Source of the DNA: Rufibacter latericius
Lineage (GTDB): Bacteria; Bacteroidota; Bacteroidia; Cytophagales; Hymenobacteraceae
Length of the DNA stretch: 64,000 nucleotides
Assembly: GCF_003721515.1 (NCBI RefSeq)
Contig: NZ_RJJD01000003.1
Location: forward strand, 248,001 to 312,000
Direction: 5' to 3'
Below are positions 14,674 to 22,706 of this stretch, piece after piece. The notes under the pieces were generated by a model. The model searched no databases. It was not told the origin of the DNA and saw only the letters and a list, made by a program, of their open reading frames with translations. Both the position numbers and the translations under genes were made by a program. The stretch's first letter is position 1; each line of letters begins with the position of its first letter.

Positions 14674-14709
14674 CGTTTTTATCTTTAGACAGAATTAATG
14701 TGATTGCCT

Positions 14710-17700
14710 ATGGTAAGTTTAAAACAGTCAAATACCCTTCCTAAGACAGACCATTACCTCATAGGGATTGGAGCATCGGCGGGAGGGTTGGAGGCTATCC
14801 ATAAACTGTTTGACCATTTCCCCAATAACTCCAGCTTTTCGTTTGTCATCATCCAGCACCTTTCGCCAGACCACAAAAGTCTCATGGCAGAGTTGCTGTC
14901 CAAGCACACCCAAATGCGGGTACAGGAAGCCGAGAATGACATGGTTACCCGCCCCAACTGCATCTACGTGCTGCCCAGTGGCAAACAGCTAACGGTGAAA
15001 AGAGGCCGCTTGCGGCTGGTAGACCAGATCAGAACCCGTGAGCCAAACTTCGCCATTGATGTGTTTTTTGATTCGTTGGCTAAAGACCGGGGCAAATACG
15101 CCATAGGCATTGTGTTGTCTGGCACCGGAACAGACGGCACCAAAGGCGTGAAAATGATCAAGGCAGCGGGCGGCATGGTCATGGTACAAGACCCCGCCTC
15201 GGCCAAGTTTGACGGCATGCCCCGCAGTGCCATTGAAACCGGCGCGGTAGATTTTGTTTTTCCCCCAGAGCGGATGCCCCACGAAATTCTGGAGTTTACC
15301 CGTCAGATTCCTCTAGTGCAAACCTTGATTGAAAAGAACAATACCATTGAAGACGATGAGGTGCTGGAAGAAATCCTGGACCTCATCTGCACCCATACCC
15401 AAACCAATTTCAAGAGCTACAAGCAAGGCACCATTTACCGCCGCATTAAAAAGCGGATGGACCTGCTGAAGGTGATCACCCTAGCCGATTACCTGACTTA
15501 CATTCACGAGAACCCTGCCGAGATAAAACAGCTTTGCCAGGAATTCCTCATCGGAGTGACCCGGTTTTTCCGAGACCCCGAGGCCTTTGAGTATCTGGAA
15601 GAGGAAGTCATTCCGCAGATCATCCAGAACACGCCCCAAGGGGAAACCATTAAAGTATGGGTGACTGCCTGCAGCACCGGGGAAGAGGTGTACTCCATTG
15701 CCATGCTGTTTCAGGAGTGTTTTCAGAAAATGGGCCGTGAACCGCTGGTCAAGCTGTTCGCCACCGATGTAGACCAACGCGCCATCCGGCAGGCCTCCAA
15801 AGGGGTGTTCCCAAATTCCATCGCCAAAGATGTAAATGAGAAGCGCCTGCAGGAATTCTTCCACTTTAAAAACAACCGGTACACCGTAAAGGAAGACCTC
15901 CGGAAGCTGGTGGTTTTCGCGCAGCACGACCTGCAGAAAGACCCCCCGTTCAGCCGCATAGACCTGATTACCTGCCGGAATATGCTCATCTATCTTAACC
16001 CAGACCTTCAGAAAAAGGTGATGGCGGTGTTCCCCTATGCTTTGAAGATGAACGGGTACCTGTTTCTGGGACCTAGTGAGCACATCGGGGACCTGAAGAA
16101 TTATTTCTCTGAAAAAAACCGAAAGTGGAAGTTCTTCCAGAAGGTACGGGAAAGCAAAGACCTTCAGCACTCGTACGGCGTGAGCCACCACACCCGGGCG
16201 AACTCAGAAGATGTTCCGTCTACTTACCGCAACACCCAGTCCTTACGCTACAATGAACTGTTCCTGGATGCGGTGGCCGAGGACCTCAAAATGGCGGGCC
16301 TCTTCATTGACGATAATTACCAGTTGCTGCATGGCATAGGGGATTTCAACCGTTTCCTGAAACTACCCGAAAAACGCCTGCAGATGAACCTGCTGAAAAT
16401 GGTGTCTAAAGAATTGGGCGTTACCCTTAGCGTAGACATCCGGAAGGTATTGAAGAACACCAAAATTGTCTCGCGGCAGGTAGTGGTGAAGCAGGGAAAC
16501 AAAAGCCAGCTGGTGAATCTTACGGTGAAACCCATTTCGGGGGAGCCAGACATGCCCAAGGTGTTGCTGGTGCTCATGCAGGAGGTAGGAAAGGCAAGTC
16601 CGGCGCTCAAGCACCTGCAGCCTTCCCTGGTATCGGAGGAAGACACCGAGTACTTCCACCAGCTTTCCGTTTTAGAGGCAGAATTGAAAGAAGCCCGCGA
16701 AAGCCTGCACCTGACCGTACAGGACCTGAGCACTTCCAACGAAGAGCTGCAGTCAACCAACGAAGAGCTCATGTCTTCCAACGAGGAACTGCAAAGCTCC
16801 AACGAAGAGATGCAGTCGCTCAACGAGGAACTGCACACCGTAAACTCAGAACACCAGCTCAAGATAAAGGAACTGCAGGAACTGAACGAAGACCTGGACA
16901 ACTACATGCGTAGCTCCAACATAGGCCAGCTGTTCCTGGACCATCACCTGGTTATCCGGAAGTTCACAGCTCCTGTCATGCAGTTCATCAACATCATCGA
17001 CATTGACCTGGGTCGGCCCATTCACCACTTATCCCATAACCTGAAGTACTCCCGCTGGATGGAGGACATCAAAAAGGTGAACAACACCTCTACTGAGATA
17101 GAGCAGGAAGTGGAGACCACCAATGGAAGATGCTTCTTGATGCGCATCATCCCTTACCTGAAGCACGACGGAAACAAAGACGGCGTGGTGCTCAGCTTCG
17201 TGGACGTGACTACCCTTAAAGCCCTGAGCAACGTGGTGCAAGGCGTTCTCAACAGTTCGCTGAACAACATCATGGCGTTTCAGGCGGTGCGCAACCAGGA
17301 GCAGGAAGTGGTGGATTTTAACTGGAGTCTACTAAACAACCAAGCCGAGCAACTCATTGGTAAATCCCAGGCAGAACTTCTGAATAAAAGCGTTCAGACT
17401 GAGATCACATTCCTGAAAAAGACGGGATTGTTCAAGAAGTTTGTGCAGATCATAGAAACCGGCCAACCCCTGCACATTGAACAGAACCTGGAACTGAACG
17501 GACGCCGAGGCTGGTATGAGATTGCGGCCGCTAAAATGGGCGATGGTCTCACCCTCACCATGGCCGATGTCACCGAAAAACGGGAAAGCGAGGAAAAGAT
17601 TCTGCTGGCCTACGAAGACATCAAACGGGCCGAGGAAGACCTGATCAAGCTCAATGGCCAATTAGAAGTACGCGTGGCAAACCGAACCCAGGAGCTCTCC

Positions 17701-18792
17701 GAAAGCCAGGAACGCTTCAAGCTGGTGTCCAGGGCCACTAACGACGTGGTCTGGGACTGGAACCTAATTTCCAATGAACTCTGGTGGAGCGACACCATGA
17801 AAACCATCCTGGGGTATGACCCCGAGGAGATGGGCAAAGGTATTGACGCCTGGTTCAACAAAATCCACCCAGATGACAAGCAACGGGTGATCAAGGGAGT
17901 CAACGAAGCCATCAACACCGGCCAGGATCAATGGGTAGAGGAATTCAAGCTCATCCGGGCCGACGGTTCTTACGCATCCATCTACAACCGGGCGTACATC
18001 CTGCACAACGAGTACCAGGTGCCGCACCGCGTGCTAGGCTCTTTCATTGACATCTCAGACCTGAAAGACACCCAACTGAAGCTGCAGGACACCAACGCCC
18101 ACCTGTTGCGCGTGATTGATGACCTGGACAATTTCGTGTACACCGCCTCCCACGACCTAAAGGCCCCCATCCACAACATTGAGGCCCTGTTGCGCGAATT
18201 GCAGGTAGAGTTACCCTCTGAGAAGTCAGACCTGGCGGATGTCCAGCAAATCATGGACATGATGCAGGGAGCCATTGAGCGTTTCAAAAAGACCATTGGT
18301 AACCTCACTGAGATCACCAAACTCCAGAACGACCACAGCACCGATGTCAGCTCCATTCACCTGGCCAGCCTGGTGGAGGATGTGACCCTTGATCTGGAAC
18401 CCATGATCAAAGCAGAAAATGCCCAGCTGAACGTAGATGTAAGCAAGTGTCCTGTTCTCTCCTTCTCTGAAAAAAACCTGCGCAGCATTGTCTACAATTT
18501 GGTCTCTAATGCCATAAAATACCGGTCACCCGATCGTGAACCCGTGGTGTCCATAAGTTGCGAGCAAAAAGACCGCTTCGTTGTGCTAACCGTCCAGGAC
18601 AATGGCCTGGGCCTGAGCCCTGACCAACTGGAGAATCTGTTTTCTATGTTCCAGCGGTTCCATGACCACGTAGACGGCTCAGGTATTGGCCTTTACATGG
18701 TGAAAAAGATCATGAACAACGCCGGCGGAAAAATAGAAGTAGAAAGCCAGGTAGGCGAAGGCACCACCTTTAAAGTGTATTTCAGAAAGTAA
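14710..18792 (+). CDS. CheB-CheR-PAS-histidine kinase hybrid
   Basis: A 1360-residue signalling protein. CheB methylesterase domain (about 15-190): Ser23 in GASAGG, His50 in QHLSPDH and Asp142 in GTGTDG form the triad. CheR methyltransferase (about 200-470): SAM motif in VTACSTGEEVYSIAM, plus TCRNMLIYL. Next come a coiled coil of repeated S/T-NEEL-Q heptads (about 660-740), two or three PAS domains (the last contains DVVWDWN) and a histidine kinase with His1148 in TASHDLKAPIHN, an N-box near 1263 (NLVSNAIKY) and DNGLGL. No receiver domain is present, so a separate response regulator is needed. Such hybrids are common in Bacteroidota and are not tied to flagella. It is predicted cytoplasmic and follows the phytochrome gene by 50 bp. 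The ATG at 14710 is preferred to the TTG at 14704. Confidence 0.9.
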   Translation: MVSLKQSNTLPKTDHYLIGIGASAGGLEAIHKLFDHFPNNSSFSFVIIQHLSPDHKSLMAELLSKHTQMRVQEAENDMVTRPNCIYVLPSGKQLTVKRGRLRLVDQIRTREPNFAIDVFFDSLAKDRGKYAIGIVLSGTGTDGTKGVKMIKAAGGMVMVQDPASAKFDGMPRSAIETGAVDFVFPPERMPHEILEFTRQIPLVQTLIEKNNTIEDDEVLEEILDLICTHTQTNFKSYKQGTIYRRIKKRMDLLKVITLADYLTYIHENPAEIKQLCQEFLIGVTRFFRDPEAFEYLEEEVIPQIIQNTPQGETIKVWVTACSTGEEVYSIAMLFQECFQKMGREPLVKLFATDVDQRAIRQASKGVFPNSIAKDVNEKRLQEFFHFKNNRYTVKEDLRKLVVFAQHDLQKDPPFSRIDLITCRNMLIYLNPDLQKKVMAVFPYALKMNGYLFLGPSEHIGDLKNYFSEKNRKWKFFQKVRESKDLQHSYGVSHHTRANSEDVPSTYRNTQSLRYNELFLDAVAEDLKMAGLFIDDNYQLLHGIGDFNRFLKLPEKRLQMNLLKMVSKELGVTLSVDIRKVLKNTKIVSRQVVVKQGNKSQLVNLTVKPISGEPDMPKVLLVLMQEVGKASPALKHLQPSLVSEEDTEYFHQLSVLEAELKEARESLHLTVQDLSTSNEELQSTNEELMSSNEELQSSNEEMQSLNEELHTVNSEHQLKIKELQELNEDLDNYMRSSNIGQLFLDHHLVIRKFTAPVMQFINIIDIDLGRPIHHLSHNLKYSRWMEDIKKVNNTSTEIEQEVETTNGRCFLMRIIPYLKHDGNKDGVVLSFVDVTTLKALSNVVQGVLNSSLNNIMAFQAVRNQEQEVVDFNWSLLNNQAEQLIGKSQAELLNKSVQTEITFLKKTGLFKKFVQIIETGQPLHIEQNLELNGRRGWYEIAAAKMGDGLTLTMADVTEKRESEEKILLAYEDIKRAEEDLIKLNGQLEVRVANRTQELSESQERFKLVSRATNDVVWDWNLISNELWWSDTMKTILGYDPEEMGKGIDAWFNKIHPDDKQRVIKGVNEAINTGQDQWVEEFKLIRADGSYASIYNRAYILHNEYQVPHRVLGSFIDISDLKDTQLKLQDTNAHLLRVIDDLDNFVYTASHDLKAPIHNIEALLRELQVELPSEKSDLADVQQIMDMMQGAIERFKKTIGNLTEITKLQNDHSTDVSSIHLASLVEDVTLDLEPMIKAENAQLNVDVSKCPVLSFSEKNLRSIVYNLVSNAIKYRSPDREPVVSISCEQKDRFVVLTVQDNGLGLSPDQLENLFSMFQRFHDHVDGSGIGLYMVKKIMNNAGGKIEVESQVGEGTTFKVYFRK

Positions 18793-20066: not shown

Positions 20067-20080
20067 GTAGCAATCTTGGT

Positions 20081-20120
20081 AAATGGAAAGGGCAACCCTT
20101 AGTGGTTGCCCTTTCCATTT
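20081..20120. terminator. Hairpin terminator between convergent genes
   Basis: Perfect 17-bp stem AAATGGAAAGGGCAACC / GGTTGCCCTTTCCATTT with a 6-nt loop, between ctaA and the TelA operon end. Confidence 0.8.
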
Positions 20121-20168
20121 ACGGATATACGTGGAGACAAGGCATGTCTTGGCTCTATATTTATTACC

Positions 20169-20996
20169 CTATTTGGTGCCGTTCCGGTAAATCCTGACTG
20201 GGAAGAGGCGGTAATCGTTTAGGTTGATGGCGTACAGGAAGCCTTCCCAGTGAATGACGGGGACCACGCCGGTGGGTGTGATGCCGTTGTTGTTGGGGAT
20301 AGTAAGGAGAGCGTTTCCTACATACGAAACATCCTGCAGGCCCAAGCGGGTGACGAGGTGCGACTGGAATGCTTCTTTCTGGTCTTTGGAAGAGGTAAAC
20401 CCGATTTCCCGGGGCACCAGTTCCTCCTTTTTCCCTTCGGTGTAGTAAGTGATCTTTTCCACGGTGTTGATGGAAATCTCGGGTAGGTAAAGGCGGGGCA
20501 CGGCGGCTTTCGCACCTCCGGCTTGGTAAAACTGCACCGAGGTGGAAACCGGGCGCACCAGATCCGGGAGATTAGCCATCTGTTCCAGGCGCTTCAGTTT
20601 CTCGGCTTTGCTTTTCTGCACCGAGACTTCCACCGTGTTTGCGGCTTCAGTAGCTCCTCGGGTGAGCAGGGCATGCTTTTGGTGTACCTCCCAAATGGCG
20701 GTAAAGGTGGTGAGGAAATGGTCTGTGTTCTTGAGATGGAAAACCTCCAGTTCCTGCACCTTTTTCCGGGAGACCAGGTACGTGTGGATGTTCTTGGTTT
20801 TCTCGTAGACGGCTTTCATCTTGCTAGCCTGGGGCGTACCCTTGTAACGGGTGCTCAGTTCCTGTAGAAGGGTAAGCCGGCGGTTAGATTCCTTGATGTA
20901 GCCAATTTCCTGTAAGCCCAAATCTTCGCCCGCCCCTATCACGGCCCTGCGGCCTGCCTCCTTCCTCCCGAAAAGGGAGCGCATGAAATCCATCAT
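20169..20996 (-). CDS. Hypothetical protein of the TelA operon (275 aa)
   Basis: Not recognised by name. It is a soluble protein with a helical, coiled-coil-like N-terminal half (IKESNRRLTLLQELSTRYKGTP to KSKAEKLKRLEQM, about 30-145) and a strand-rich C-terminal half (about 155-275) ending VPVIHWEGFLYAINLNDYRLFPVRIYR. It is the last gene of a tight minus-strand operon. Its ATG overlaps the stop of the 56-residue gene (ATGA), so translation is probably coupled. Position behind TelA suggests that it works with TelA, perhaps in an envelope or toxic-oxyanion stress complex; that is inference from context alone. Confidence 0.7.
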   Translation of the reverse strand: MMDFMRSLFGRKEAGRRAVIGAGEDLGLQEIGYIKESNRRLTLLQELSTRYKGTPQASKMKAVYEKTKNIHTYLVSRKKVQELEVFHLKNTDHFLTTFTAIWEVHQKHALLTRGATEAANTVEVSVQKSKAEKLKRLEQMANLPDLVRPVSTSVQFYQAGGAKAAVPRLYLPEISINTVEKITYYTEGKKEELVPREIGFTSSKDQKEAFQSHLVTRLGLQDVSYVGNALLTIPNNNGITPTGVVPVIHWEGFLYAINLNDYRLFPVRIYRNGTK

Positions 20997-21163
20997 TCAG
21001 TCAATATCTTTTTAAGGTGCAGGGTTTCAATCTCAACCTGTATTTTTTCGGCGTTTTTCTGATTCTCGAAGAAATTGTCCAGGTTGTTTAAATACAGGTC
21101 TAAAAGGGAATCCTGCTCCTGCGTCAGGATCCCGTTTAGCGCTGTGTTGGAATCATCGGCCAT
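20993..21163 (-). CDS. Very small TelA-operon protein (56 aa)
   Basis: A short gene read directly from the sequence: ATG at 21163, 56 codons, TGA at 20993-20995. The product starts MADDSNTALNGILTQEQDSL and ends LHLKKILTE; it is acidic, soluble and predicted to be almost all helical. Two signs support it: the start lies 2 nt after the telA stop, and the stop overlaps the next ATG as ATGA, so it fills the gap between two genes exactly. No family is recognised. A small helical linker or subunit for its two neighbours is a reasonable guess. Confidence 0.75.
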   Translation of the reverse strand: MADDSNTALNGILTQEQDSLLDLYLNNLDNFFENQKNAEKIQVEIETLHLKKILTE

Positions 21164-21165
21164 TC

Positions 21166-22251
21166 TTATTCAATCTCAATTCGTTTTGATTTCCCTAAGG
21201 TACCCAGGATTTTGCTGTTGAGCTCTTCCTGTACCAAGGCGAGCTCTTTTACGGCCTCGGCCCGTTTGCGGCTGCCCTCCTCTGAGATTTTGATCACGGC
21301 ATCAAGGGTCTCTACCATGTCTTTATTTACTTTCTTGAGGGTGTCCACGTCCACAATGCCGCGTTCGTTTTCCTGCGCCGCGGTGACCACGTTGGTTTTG
21401 AGCAGCTGCGAGTTCTTCAGGAGCATCTCATTGGTGGTATCAGTCACTTTCTTCTGGATCTCCAGGGCCTTGCGTTGTTTCTCCAATCCCAACGCAATGG
21501 CTACCTGCTGGCGCCATACCGGAATCACGGTTACAATGGAGTTCTGGATTTTCTGGGCCAATACGTCATTGGTGGTCTGGATCATCCGGATCTGCGGCAT
21601 GGACTGAGTAGCAATGGTATGCGACAAGGTGAAATCATGCACCTTTTTCTCTAAACGGTCTTTAAACGCCACCATATCAGCTAAACGCTGCACCACCAGT
21701 TCATCTTGACCGCTGCTTTCTACCTCAGACTGCAGTTGGGGAATGAGCTGGTTTTCTATTTCCTCAATCTTCAGCCTTCCGGCGGCAATCAGGGAACGCA
21801 CCTCATGGATGTACTCCACCACTTGTTTGAACATGACCTCCAGACCGGTAGAATCTTTCAGGACGCTCTGGCGGGTTTTCTCCAGCTTCACCACCACATC
21901 GTCAACGTTCTCAGACACCGAGTTGTACTGGCTGGCCAGCTGCTTGGTCTTGTCTTTGATCTTGCCCACAAACGGCAGGCGGGAGAAGAAACCGGGTTTC
22001 TCGGTCTCGTCTACCTTGATCATGTTGATCTGGGTCAGCAGCTCATTGATGGCGGCACCGGCATCACCAGAGTCTTTGGCTTTCACCTTGGTCAATAGCT
22101 CGTTGGAATAATAGCCCAGCTTACGCTGCGTTTCCACGCCAAAGGAACTGAGGCTTTCCGGCTTGGTAGGATCTATGGTCTTGGAGATTTCCAGGGCTCT
22201 CTGCTGGATCAGCTCTTTGTTTTCTGACAGGGCAATTTCCTTGTTTTCCAT
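21166..22251 (-). CDS. TelA/KlaA-family toxic anion resistance protein
   Basis: A 361-residue, mostly helical, soluble protein of the TelA family (Pfam TelA, PF05816). The family pattern is clear: LLTKVKAKDSGDAGAAINELL near residue 55, the FFSRLPFVGKIKDKTKQLASQYNSV block near 88, a coiled central region and the C-terminal ITVIPVWRQQVAIALGLEKQRKALEIQKKVTDTTNEMLLKNSQLLK block. Members are linked to resistance to tellurite and other toxic anions and to cell-envelope stress; the mechanism is unclear. It is the second of four genes in a compact minus-strand operon, 5 nt after the 149-residue gene. Confidence 0.9.
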   Translation of the reverse strand: MENKEIALSENKELIQQRALEISKTIDPTKPESLSSFGVETQRKLGYYSNELLTKVKAKDSGDAGAAINELLTQINMIKVDETEKPGFFSRLPFVGKIKDKTKQLASQYNSVSENVDDVVVKLEKTRQSVLKDSTGLEVMFKQVVEYIHEVRSLIAAGRLKIEEIENQLIPQLQSEVESSGQDELVVQRLADMVAFKDRLEKKVHDFTLSHTIATQSMPQIRMIQTTNDVLAQKIQNSIVTVIPVWRQQVAIALGLEKQRKALEIQKKVTDTTNEMLLKNSQLLKTNVVTAAQENERGIVDVDTLKKVNKDMVETLDAVIKISEEGSRKRAEAVKELALVQEELNSKILGTLGKSKRIEIE

Positions 22252-22256
22252 GGTGT

Positions 22257-22706
22257 TTAGCTTCTTGCGGTGTGGGGGTTCTGAACTGAATCTAACTCAA
22301 CGACAAACTCTTTTATCTTTTGGTGGCGGCCGTTGACTTCGTACCACTCAATCTCATTTTTGGGCAGGTATTCCCCTAACAGGCCGTGCACTTCCTGCAA
22401 CAACTCCGGGCCTTTGCGGGTCCTGAACTCCGGGTTCTTATAGAAGGCGCTCAGGTACTGTACTTTTACTTGTCCGCCCTGGGTCACGGCCAGTTCCTTC
22501 ACCTCTACCACTAACTCAGACGACTTCTGTTTATCCGTCACAATGGTCTTGTAAACGCCTTTGTGCTCGTCTTCCAGTACCGCCCTGCACTTCTCCTGAA
22601 GGTCTTGGATGGTTTTCTGTAGTTTCTGGTTTGGCCTGATGCGGCTTCCGTAAATGTAGCCTAAGAATCCGCCTAGTATCAATATGAATGCGATTGTGAA
22701 TGCCAT
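22257..22706 (-). CDS. Membrane-anchored hypothetical protein, first gene of the TelA operon
   Basis: A 149-residue protein with one N-terminal membrane helix (MAFTIAFILILGGFLGYIYG) followed by a charged, partly coiled region (RIRPNQKLQKTIQDLQEKCRAVLEDEHKG) and a soluble C-terminal domain of about 90 residues. The short N-terminus and the positive RIRP sequence after the helix suggest that the soluble part is in the cytoplasm. No family is recognised. It is 5 nt upstream of telA, so it could anchor the TelA system at the membrane (inference). Confidence 0.7.
   Translation of the reverse strand: MAFTIAFILILGGFLGYIYGSRIRPNQKLQKTIQDLQEKCRAVLEDEHKGVYKTIVTDKQKSSELVVEVKELAVTQGGQVKVQYLSAFYKNPEFRTRKGPELLQEVHGLLGEYLPKNEIEWYEVNGRHQKIKEFVVELDSVQNPHTARS

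Follow-up and report, generated by a model that had tools for sequence, protein, structure and literature searches.

A four-gene TelA operon in Rufibacter latericius in which the TelA partner is probably split

TelA proteins (PF05816) are widespread, and to our knowledge no mechanism has been settled for them. Here we describe the telA locus within a 64,000-nucleotide stretch of the Rufibacter latericius genome (contig NZ_RJJD01000003.1, positions 248,001 to 312,000 of the forward strand), referred to below as the window and used for the numbering of all its features. In the window, telA is the second gene of a four-gene operon, which is probably a variant of the TelA-partner modules known from other organisms, with the partner naturally split and one of its pieces being a protein of 56 residues. 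Judged by titles and the beginnings of abstracts, no paper listed by our searches of the open-licence full-text literature on TelA, XpaC and TerD describes the operon.

In the xpaC-yaaN operons of Bacillota and of some phage records (L077, L138, L149, L150), TelA is found beside a helical, membrane-linked partner. XpaC is encoded by a single gene, with telA downstream of it in a Bacillota locus (L077) and the same pair in a viral contig (L138), and it begins with hydrophobic segments, which are followed by a helical body and a tail at the C terminus. A published listing of the core sigma-W regulon includes xpaC-yaaN, with xpaC reported in Bacillus subtilis (PMC3498285), and a transcriptome table in a study of CesSR gives ratios of 10.3 for an XpaC-like gene and 3.44 for telA1 of L. 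lactis (PMC3139573). For the Listeria lmo1966-1967 pair, a report citing Collins et al. 2010 gives a susceptibility of the lmo1967 mutant that is 4-fold higher for nisin and 2-fold higher for tellurite (PMC12791056). In ter-type modules (L063-L066, L154-L157, L136, L081), telA is directly followed by a gene for a partner that carries a helical domain and a tail within one polypeptide. A comparative study of jumbo phages counts TelA among the components of Ter systems that form sub-membrane structures (PMC7824862). The kla region of IncP plasmids (L080, R702) encodes a further TelA homologue, KlaB, which is 30% identical. Its partners differ, the upstream gene, which we take to be KlaA, being annotated 'toxic anion resistance protein' and the downstream gene being klaC.

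The operon in the window consists of four genes.

22706-22257, minus strand: A149, an open reading frame of 149 residues
22251-21166, minus strand: TelA, 361 residues, a member of PF05816
21163-20993, minus strand: S56, an open reading frame of 56 residues
20996-20169, minus strand: C275, an open reading frame of 275 residues

The genes run in the order A149, TelA, S56 and C275, with 5 nucleotides (nt) between the first two, 2 nt between TelA and S56, and a 4-nt ATGA overlap between S56 and C275, so that the coordinates bear out the arrangement proposed in an earlier sequence-only reading of this DNA. As in the ter-type modules, telA precedes a partner with a helical N-terminal domain, and as in the xpaC-yaaN operons the partner would be helical and membrane-linked. 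The window differs from the former in that the candidate tail is encoded by a separate upstream gene and A149 is added, and from the latter in that the partner is not the product of a single gene upstream of telA with hydrophobic N-terminal segments of its own. We lean slightly toward regarding the operon as encoding a membrane-associated TelA complex, in which C275 and S56 together make up the partner and A149 is the anchor. The more detailed proposal, that the tail of an XpaC- or ter-type partner is now a translationally coupled 56-residue subunit encoded before the body gene, and that an anchor was added to give a three-piece partner, stands at even chances. The likelihoods given here and below are not mutually exclusive, because some concern the origin of S56 and others the function of the operon.

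S56 is a genuine gene. It is flanked by telA and the C275 gene in all 110 related loci, a set in which our own genome, duplicates, family genomes and a named collection are taken together, and it is represented there by 58 distinct sequences. C275 is likewise present in all 110, and an A149 homologue in 104; short pieces of C275 and A149 were kept in these counts and excluded from the alignments. Among the 50 named loci, the junction of telA with S56 measures -1 nt in 39, and that of S56 with C275 measures -4 nt in 44. The protein is under strong selection: across nine close sequences the ratio of nonsynonymous to synonymous change (pN/pS) is 0.21, compared with 0.26 for C275 and 0.28 for A149. 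Within S56, the first 15 alignment columns are variable (pN 0.364, pS 0.551) and the remaining columns are held (pN 0.050, pS 0.599); 11 residues are invariant across 28 sequences. In three Pontibacter loci (L124, 3511-4000; L126, 3873-4000; L131), two of which were inspected directly, a spacer of 128, 403 or 490 nt separates S56 from C275, and S56 is intact.

The sequence-only reading had considered the small gene unlikely to be a chance frame, and had named beforehand its conservation, and the presence of the partners next to telA in relatives, as the points to check. Both held, in that S56 and C275 accompany telA at every locus and A149 at most of them, with the same order in two genomes outside the family (L166, L167), and the conserved junctions, the low pN/pS and the persistence of S56 in the spacer loci all speak for a real gene. 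We give next to no probability to the idea that S56 is a mere translational coupler or leader for C275 with an irrelevant product. In most of the named loci, 50 in all, the ATGA and -1 junctions do link the translation of neighbouring genes, as that idea would have it, but selection acts on S56 at the protein level, and the gene is kept even where it lies 128-490 nt away from the C275 gene.

The partner relationship is clearest for C275. Its residues 29-108 align with the N-terminal domain of ter-type partners with an hhalign probability of 96.7 and an expectation value (E) of 3.4e-10 when four partner sequences are used; E is 9.6e-10 with 10 sequences and 6.3e-9 when the phage protein L081 is left out. 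These profile comparisons show the N-terminal domain of C275 to be homologous to that of the ter-type TelA partners. The fused C-terminal tail of that family is missing, as C275 ends after a beta-rich domain. An AlphaFold2 (AF2) model from 44 sequences, for which 43 of the 50 named relatives were used, predicts three helices within residues 25-120 (blocks 31-100 at a predicted local distance difference test, pLDDT, of 91-96), an unstructured, low-confidence linker at 118-169 and the beta-rich C-terminal domain at about 171-272 (blocks from 171 at pLDDT 83-93, one at 65). Because the overall predicted template modelling score is 0.39, the arrangement of the domains is left undefined by the model.

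Ter-type partners were found in 8 of 395 genomes in a class-wide search, a weak match in our own genome included. In other Bacteroidia (L063-L066), telA lies amid TerD genes, the next gene encoding a partner of 315-328 residues, and in the huge phage LR756504.1 (L081) and the viral contig L136 telA is again followed by a ter-type partner. The TelA of the window is 42% identical to that of L081. TerD-type genes flank the ter-type loci that were inspected, except L081, and TerD and PRTase were confirmed with Pfam in L063 and L066.

Structure-based comparisons of C275 gave no significant sequence match among solved structures and nothing at E <= 0.001 with Foldseek. Its VIA rows, mostly helical bundles, reached a best Z of 10.3 over 87 residues against an advised Z of about 13, and do not demonstrate a new fold. 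A sub-threshold Pfam match to Colicin M (E 2.9e-4, 20.5 bits against a cut-off of 27) was rejected as chance: among 44 relatives it occurs in one, the C275 of the window itself, and the matching stretch, 97-189, falls mostly on the low-confidence linker.

At the C terminus of the ter-type partners lies a tail of about 50 residues to which nothing at the end of C275 corresponds, and in L081 this tail, LTQEQ..LL...EKI..EI..LK.IL, is close to the sequence of S56. When 590 entries (two proteins entered twice) were searched with a hidden Markov model (HMM) of S56, the best match was L081 (E 0.0079) and the second best L066, each of them near the C terminus of the protein. Against 480 C-terminal tails of 65 residues, L081 ranked first, L066 second and L065 fourth, scores that were reached by 0, 0 and 1 of 470 background tails, respectively. 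A rank test in which each of six ter-type groups was represented by its best member gave p 9e-5, and 4e-4 without L081. With the S56 profile, the L081 tail outscores all 3000 of its own shuffles; in sets of 200, the tails of L081, L066 and L065 beat every shuffle, that of L063 beats 96%, and those of L064 and L136 beat 88-90%. When S56 was aligned by hhalign with the ter-type partners including L081, not one of 150 column shuffles reached its score, nor did any of 63 other real windows. The early comparisons (the 590-entry search and the seven-sequence and L136 tests described below) used 8 ter-type proteins, without L154 and L157, and the later ones used 10.

Several results weigh against a common origin of S56 and these tails. 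The tails of L154-L157, which are four of the 10 ter-type proteins and form one group, have no likeness to S56. Once L081 is removed, significance is no longer clear: the score of S56 against the remaining nine sequences is matched by 11 of 150 shuffles and 5 of 63 real windows, and against an earlier set of seven sequences by 3 of 100 shuffles. When L136 is the sole target, 19 of 100 shuffles equal the score. Joining S56 to the N-terminal domain of C275 brings no gain in score against the ter-type partners, and the gene order in the window, with the tail gene before the body gene, is opposite to the order in the fused proteins. These points leave room for S56 being a small subunit or adaptor of TelA in its own right, without partner ancestry, its likeness to the tails being a convergence in helix composition. 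We consider this doubtful. It would account for a likeness that comes mostly from three tails (L081, L066 and L065) and for XpaC scores that are inside noise (see below), but the best matches of S56 fall in the tail of the only family that was expected a priori, and without L081 the match still covers that tail nearly end to end, a position where just 1 of 100 shuffles falls. On balance, homology of S56 to the tail of the ter-type partners is likely, being supported by these profile comparisons and not proved by them.

A relationship to XpaC itself is a weak lead. A virtual profile made of the N-terminal domain of C275 followed by S56 aligns co-linearly with soluble XpaC over 120 columns with a score of 19.1, compared with 15.0 for the reversed order and 11.7 for the body alone, and 1 of 60 tail shuffles scored as high. 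As a group, 17 XpaC tails, which are not independent of each other, lie above background with the S56 HMM (p 2e-6), but only 3 of the 17 beat 95% of their own shuffles, compared with 8% of 60 background tails. Counting against the connection, S56 is not significant against XpaC by score alone (15 of 200 shuffles and 8 of 63 windows do as well), nor is C275 alone (42 of 60 shuffles), and none of A149, TelA, S56 and C275 matches the XpaC family PF10112. No protein of PF10112 is encoded beside TelA in the window operon. A PF10112 search of the genome found nothing, which is a weak negative since it also missed the B. subtilis control, and XpaC was above cut-off in 0 of 198 phylum genomes in a search with the same missed control. 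The absence of XpaC is therefore not firm. The XpaC protein of B. subtilis matches PF10112 at 7.7e-67, yet the whole-genome search with this model missed B. subtilis.

XpaC was also considered as the direct parent by profile score, which was not significant alone. The score between S56 and XpaC was reached by 27 of 150 or 6 of 100 shuffles when the whole XpaC alignment was used, and by 0 of 60 and then 15 of 200 when the soluble part was used. Because the outcome varied with the trimming of XpaC and with the shuffle draw, direct parentage is not claimed. Compared with solved structures, the XpaC of L138 matched a designed repeat protein (E 2.4e-5) with no stretch passing alone, which we take to be a helix artefact. 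In the large viral contigs L137 (2601-3812) and L139 (2597-3808), telA is preceded by an XpaC-type protein of 404 residues, which in L137 matches PF10112 at residues 32-167. In both proteins the hydrophobic segments are found nearer the C terminus, opposite to where XpaC usually has them.

TelA itself is a clear family member, matching PF05816 over residues 21-349 of 361 with E 4.8e-97 and 325.4 bits (cut-off 30). It is encoded by the single telA of the Rufibacter genome, and among solved structures it has no significant relative by sequence (best E 0.48). No Pfam or NCBIfam model scores above cut-off for A149, S56 or C275.

A149 has one hydrophobic helix at its N terminus and a beta-rich domain that is conserved. 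Its single hydrophobic stretch lies at the N terminus, with a Kyte-Doolittle maximum of 2.04 (19-residue window) at residue 1, and the AF2 model, based on 39 of 48 named relatives, predicts a helix at 2-23 and strands within 49-89 (mean pLDDT 73.8; blocks 51-90 at 88-91). The role of membrane anchor given to A149 in the sequence-only reading is thus plausible. Since basic residues come after the hydrophobic stretch, the sequence suggests that the C-terminal domain is cytosolic. A149 has no significant sequence match among solved structures, and Foldseek returned nothing for it at E <= 0.001; its best Z in the VIA fold search is 4.9, and no new fold is shown by it. The six loci in which no A149 homologue was found comprise the Rufibacter roseus operon, counted three times (L013, L041, L090), and loci that are short or lie at a contig edge. 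In that operon (L090, 1800-2800), telA, S56 and C275 are kept, with no A149 between the divergent helicase gene and telA; this absence refers to the position beside telA, the remainder of that genome being unsearched. Beside telA, A149 is thus less constant than the 56-residue gene.

The operon is conserved in Rufibacter, Pontibacter, Adhaeribacter and relatives. TelA and C275 each occur in 64 of 150 family genomes, our own included, and the two lists are identical. The two genomes with the four-gene order outside the family (L166, L167) belong to a second family of the same order, and S56 is found in both. Among 241 genomes of the order, TelA is above cut-off in 11. Among 198 genomes of the phylum, TelA is above cut-off in 6, our own included, the C275 profile matches 4, namely our own and three weak ones directly after telA, and the A149 and S56 profiles match our own genome alone. 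Given this restriction in the phylum and order samples, the full four-gene operon is a lineage-specific form. In another family of the same order, a divergent telA (L168, 439-1290) is preceded by a 283-residue protein with hydrophobic segments, which by eye is unrelated to A149, S56 and C275.

In the arrangement that we favour, the three-helix body of a TelA partner would come from C275 and its C-terminal tail from S56, two parts that lie within one polypeptide in the ter-type partners and probably also in XpaC. A149, as a membrane anchor with a cytosolic beta domain, would replace the membrane segments of XpaC. S56 may pack on C275, on TelA or on both, and TelA with its split partner would form an assembly beneath the inner membrane, anchored by A149. 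Such tight translational coupling would make it easier for S56 to assemble with TelA and C275 during translation. The coupling also suggests a complex with fixed ratios, as the sequence-only reading proposed, against which stands the Rufibacter roseus operon without A149 beside telA. By analogy with the xpaC-telA operons of Bacillota, the assembly may protect the envelope under stress; the complex, its sub-membrane location and its envelope-stress function are all things that we infer.

Two other functions were weighed. A phage-defence or ter-like conflict module, instead of an envelope-stress module, is unlikely. In its favour, other Bacteroidia place relatives of C275 between telA and a TerD-type gene, with further TerD genes upstream, and TelA occurs in jumbo phages, where it is discussed within Ter conflict systems in the comparative study cited above (PMC7824862). 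However, neither the neighbourhood nor the Rufibacter genome has the TerD that characterizes a Ter system: a genome search with PF02342 found none, with positive results for the controls B. subtilis and Deinobacterium chartae. PADLOC gave no match at E <= 0.1 for TelA, S56 or C275 and one weak match for A149 (E 0.0038), and the tested neighbours are COX15/CtaA, a DEAD-box helicase, a NUDIX protein, a CheB-CheR-kinase fusion and an FAD-binding oxidase. A search of PHROGs gave nothing strong. The name of the family would suggest a tellurite-detoxification operon, and PF05816 is indeed annotated 'toxic anion resistance', but Pfam and NCBIfam scans found no metal-binding or redox domain above cut-off, and in the published accounts consulted it is envelope stress that regulates xpaC-telA operons. 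A role in tellurite detoxification is therefore highly improbable.

Upstream of the operon lies the divergent DEAD-box helicase gene, and downstream, before the convergent COX15/CtaA gene is reached, there is one further feature.

20080-20121, strand unassigned: an 18-bp hairpin, predicted as an RNA fold

The fold has an energy of -30.1 kcal/mol (z -7.3), and none of 200 shuffles is equally stable. The hairpin is possibly the terminator of the operon, and is absent from the output of a simple terminator scan. A Bacteroidota-type promoter motif has no exact match anywhere in the window. Sigma-70-like sites number 7, more than the 2.5 (standard deviation 1.5) in shuffles; four of them are on the minus strand, but not one of these is located upstream of A149. 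Elsewhere in the window (14704-18792), the CheB-CheR-kinase fusion is a protein of 1362 residues that combines CheB, CheR, several PAS domains and a histidine-kinase ATPase domain.

The operon presents TelA with a fixed set of partners, among them a protein of 56 residues that lends itself to deletion, tagging or separate supply, and so opens the interaction of TelA with its partner to direct testing. Should S56 be the tail split off from such a partner, the domain border has already been mapped by nature. A split partner would also mean that the tail is an autonomous functional unit, which would probably contact TelA.

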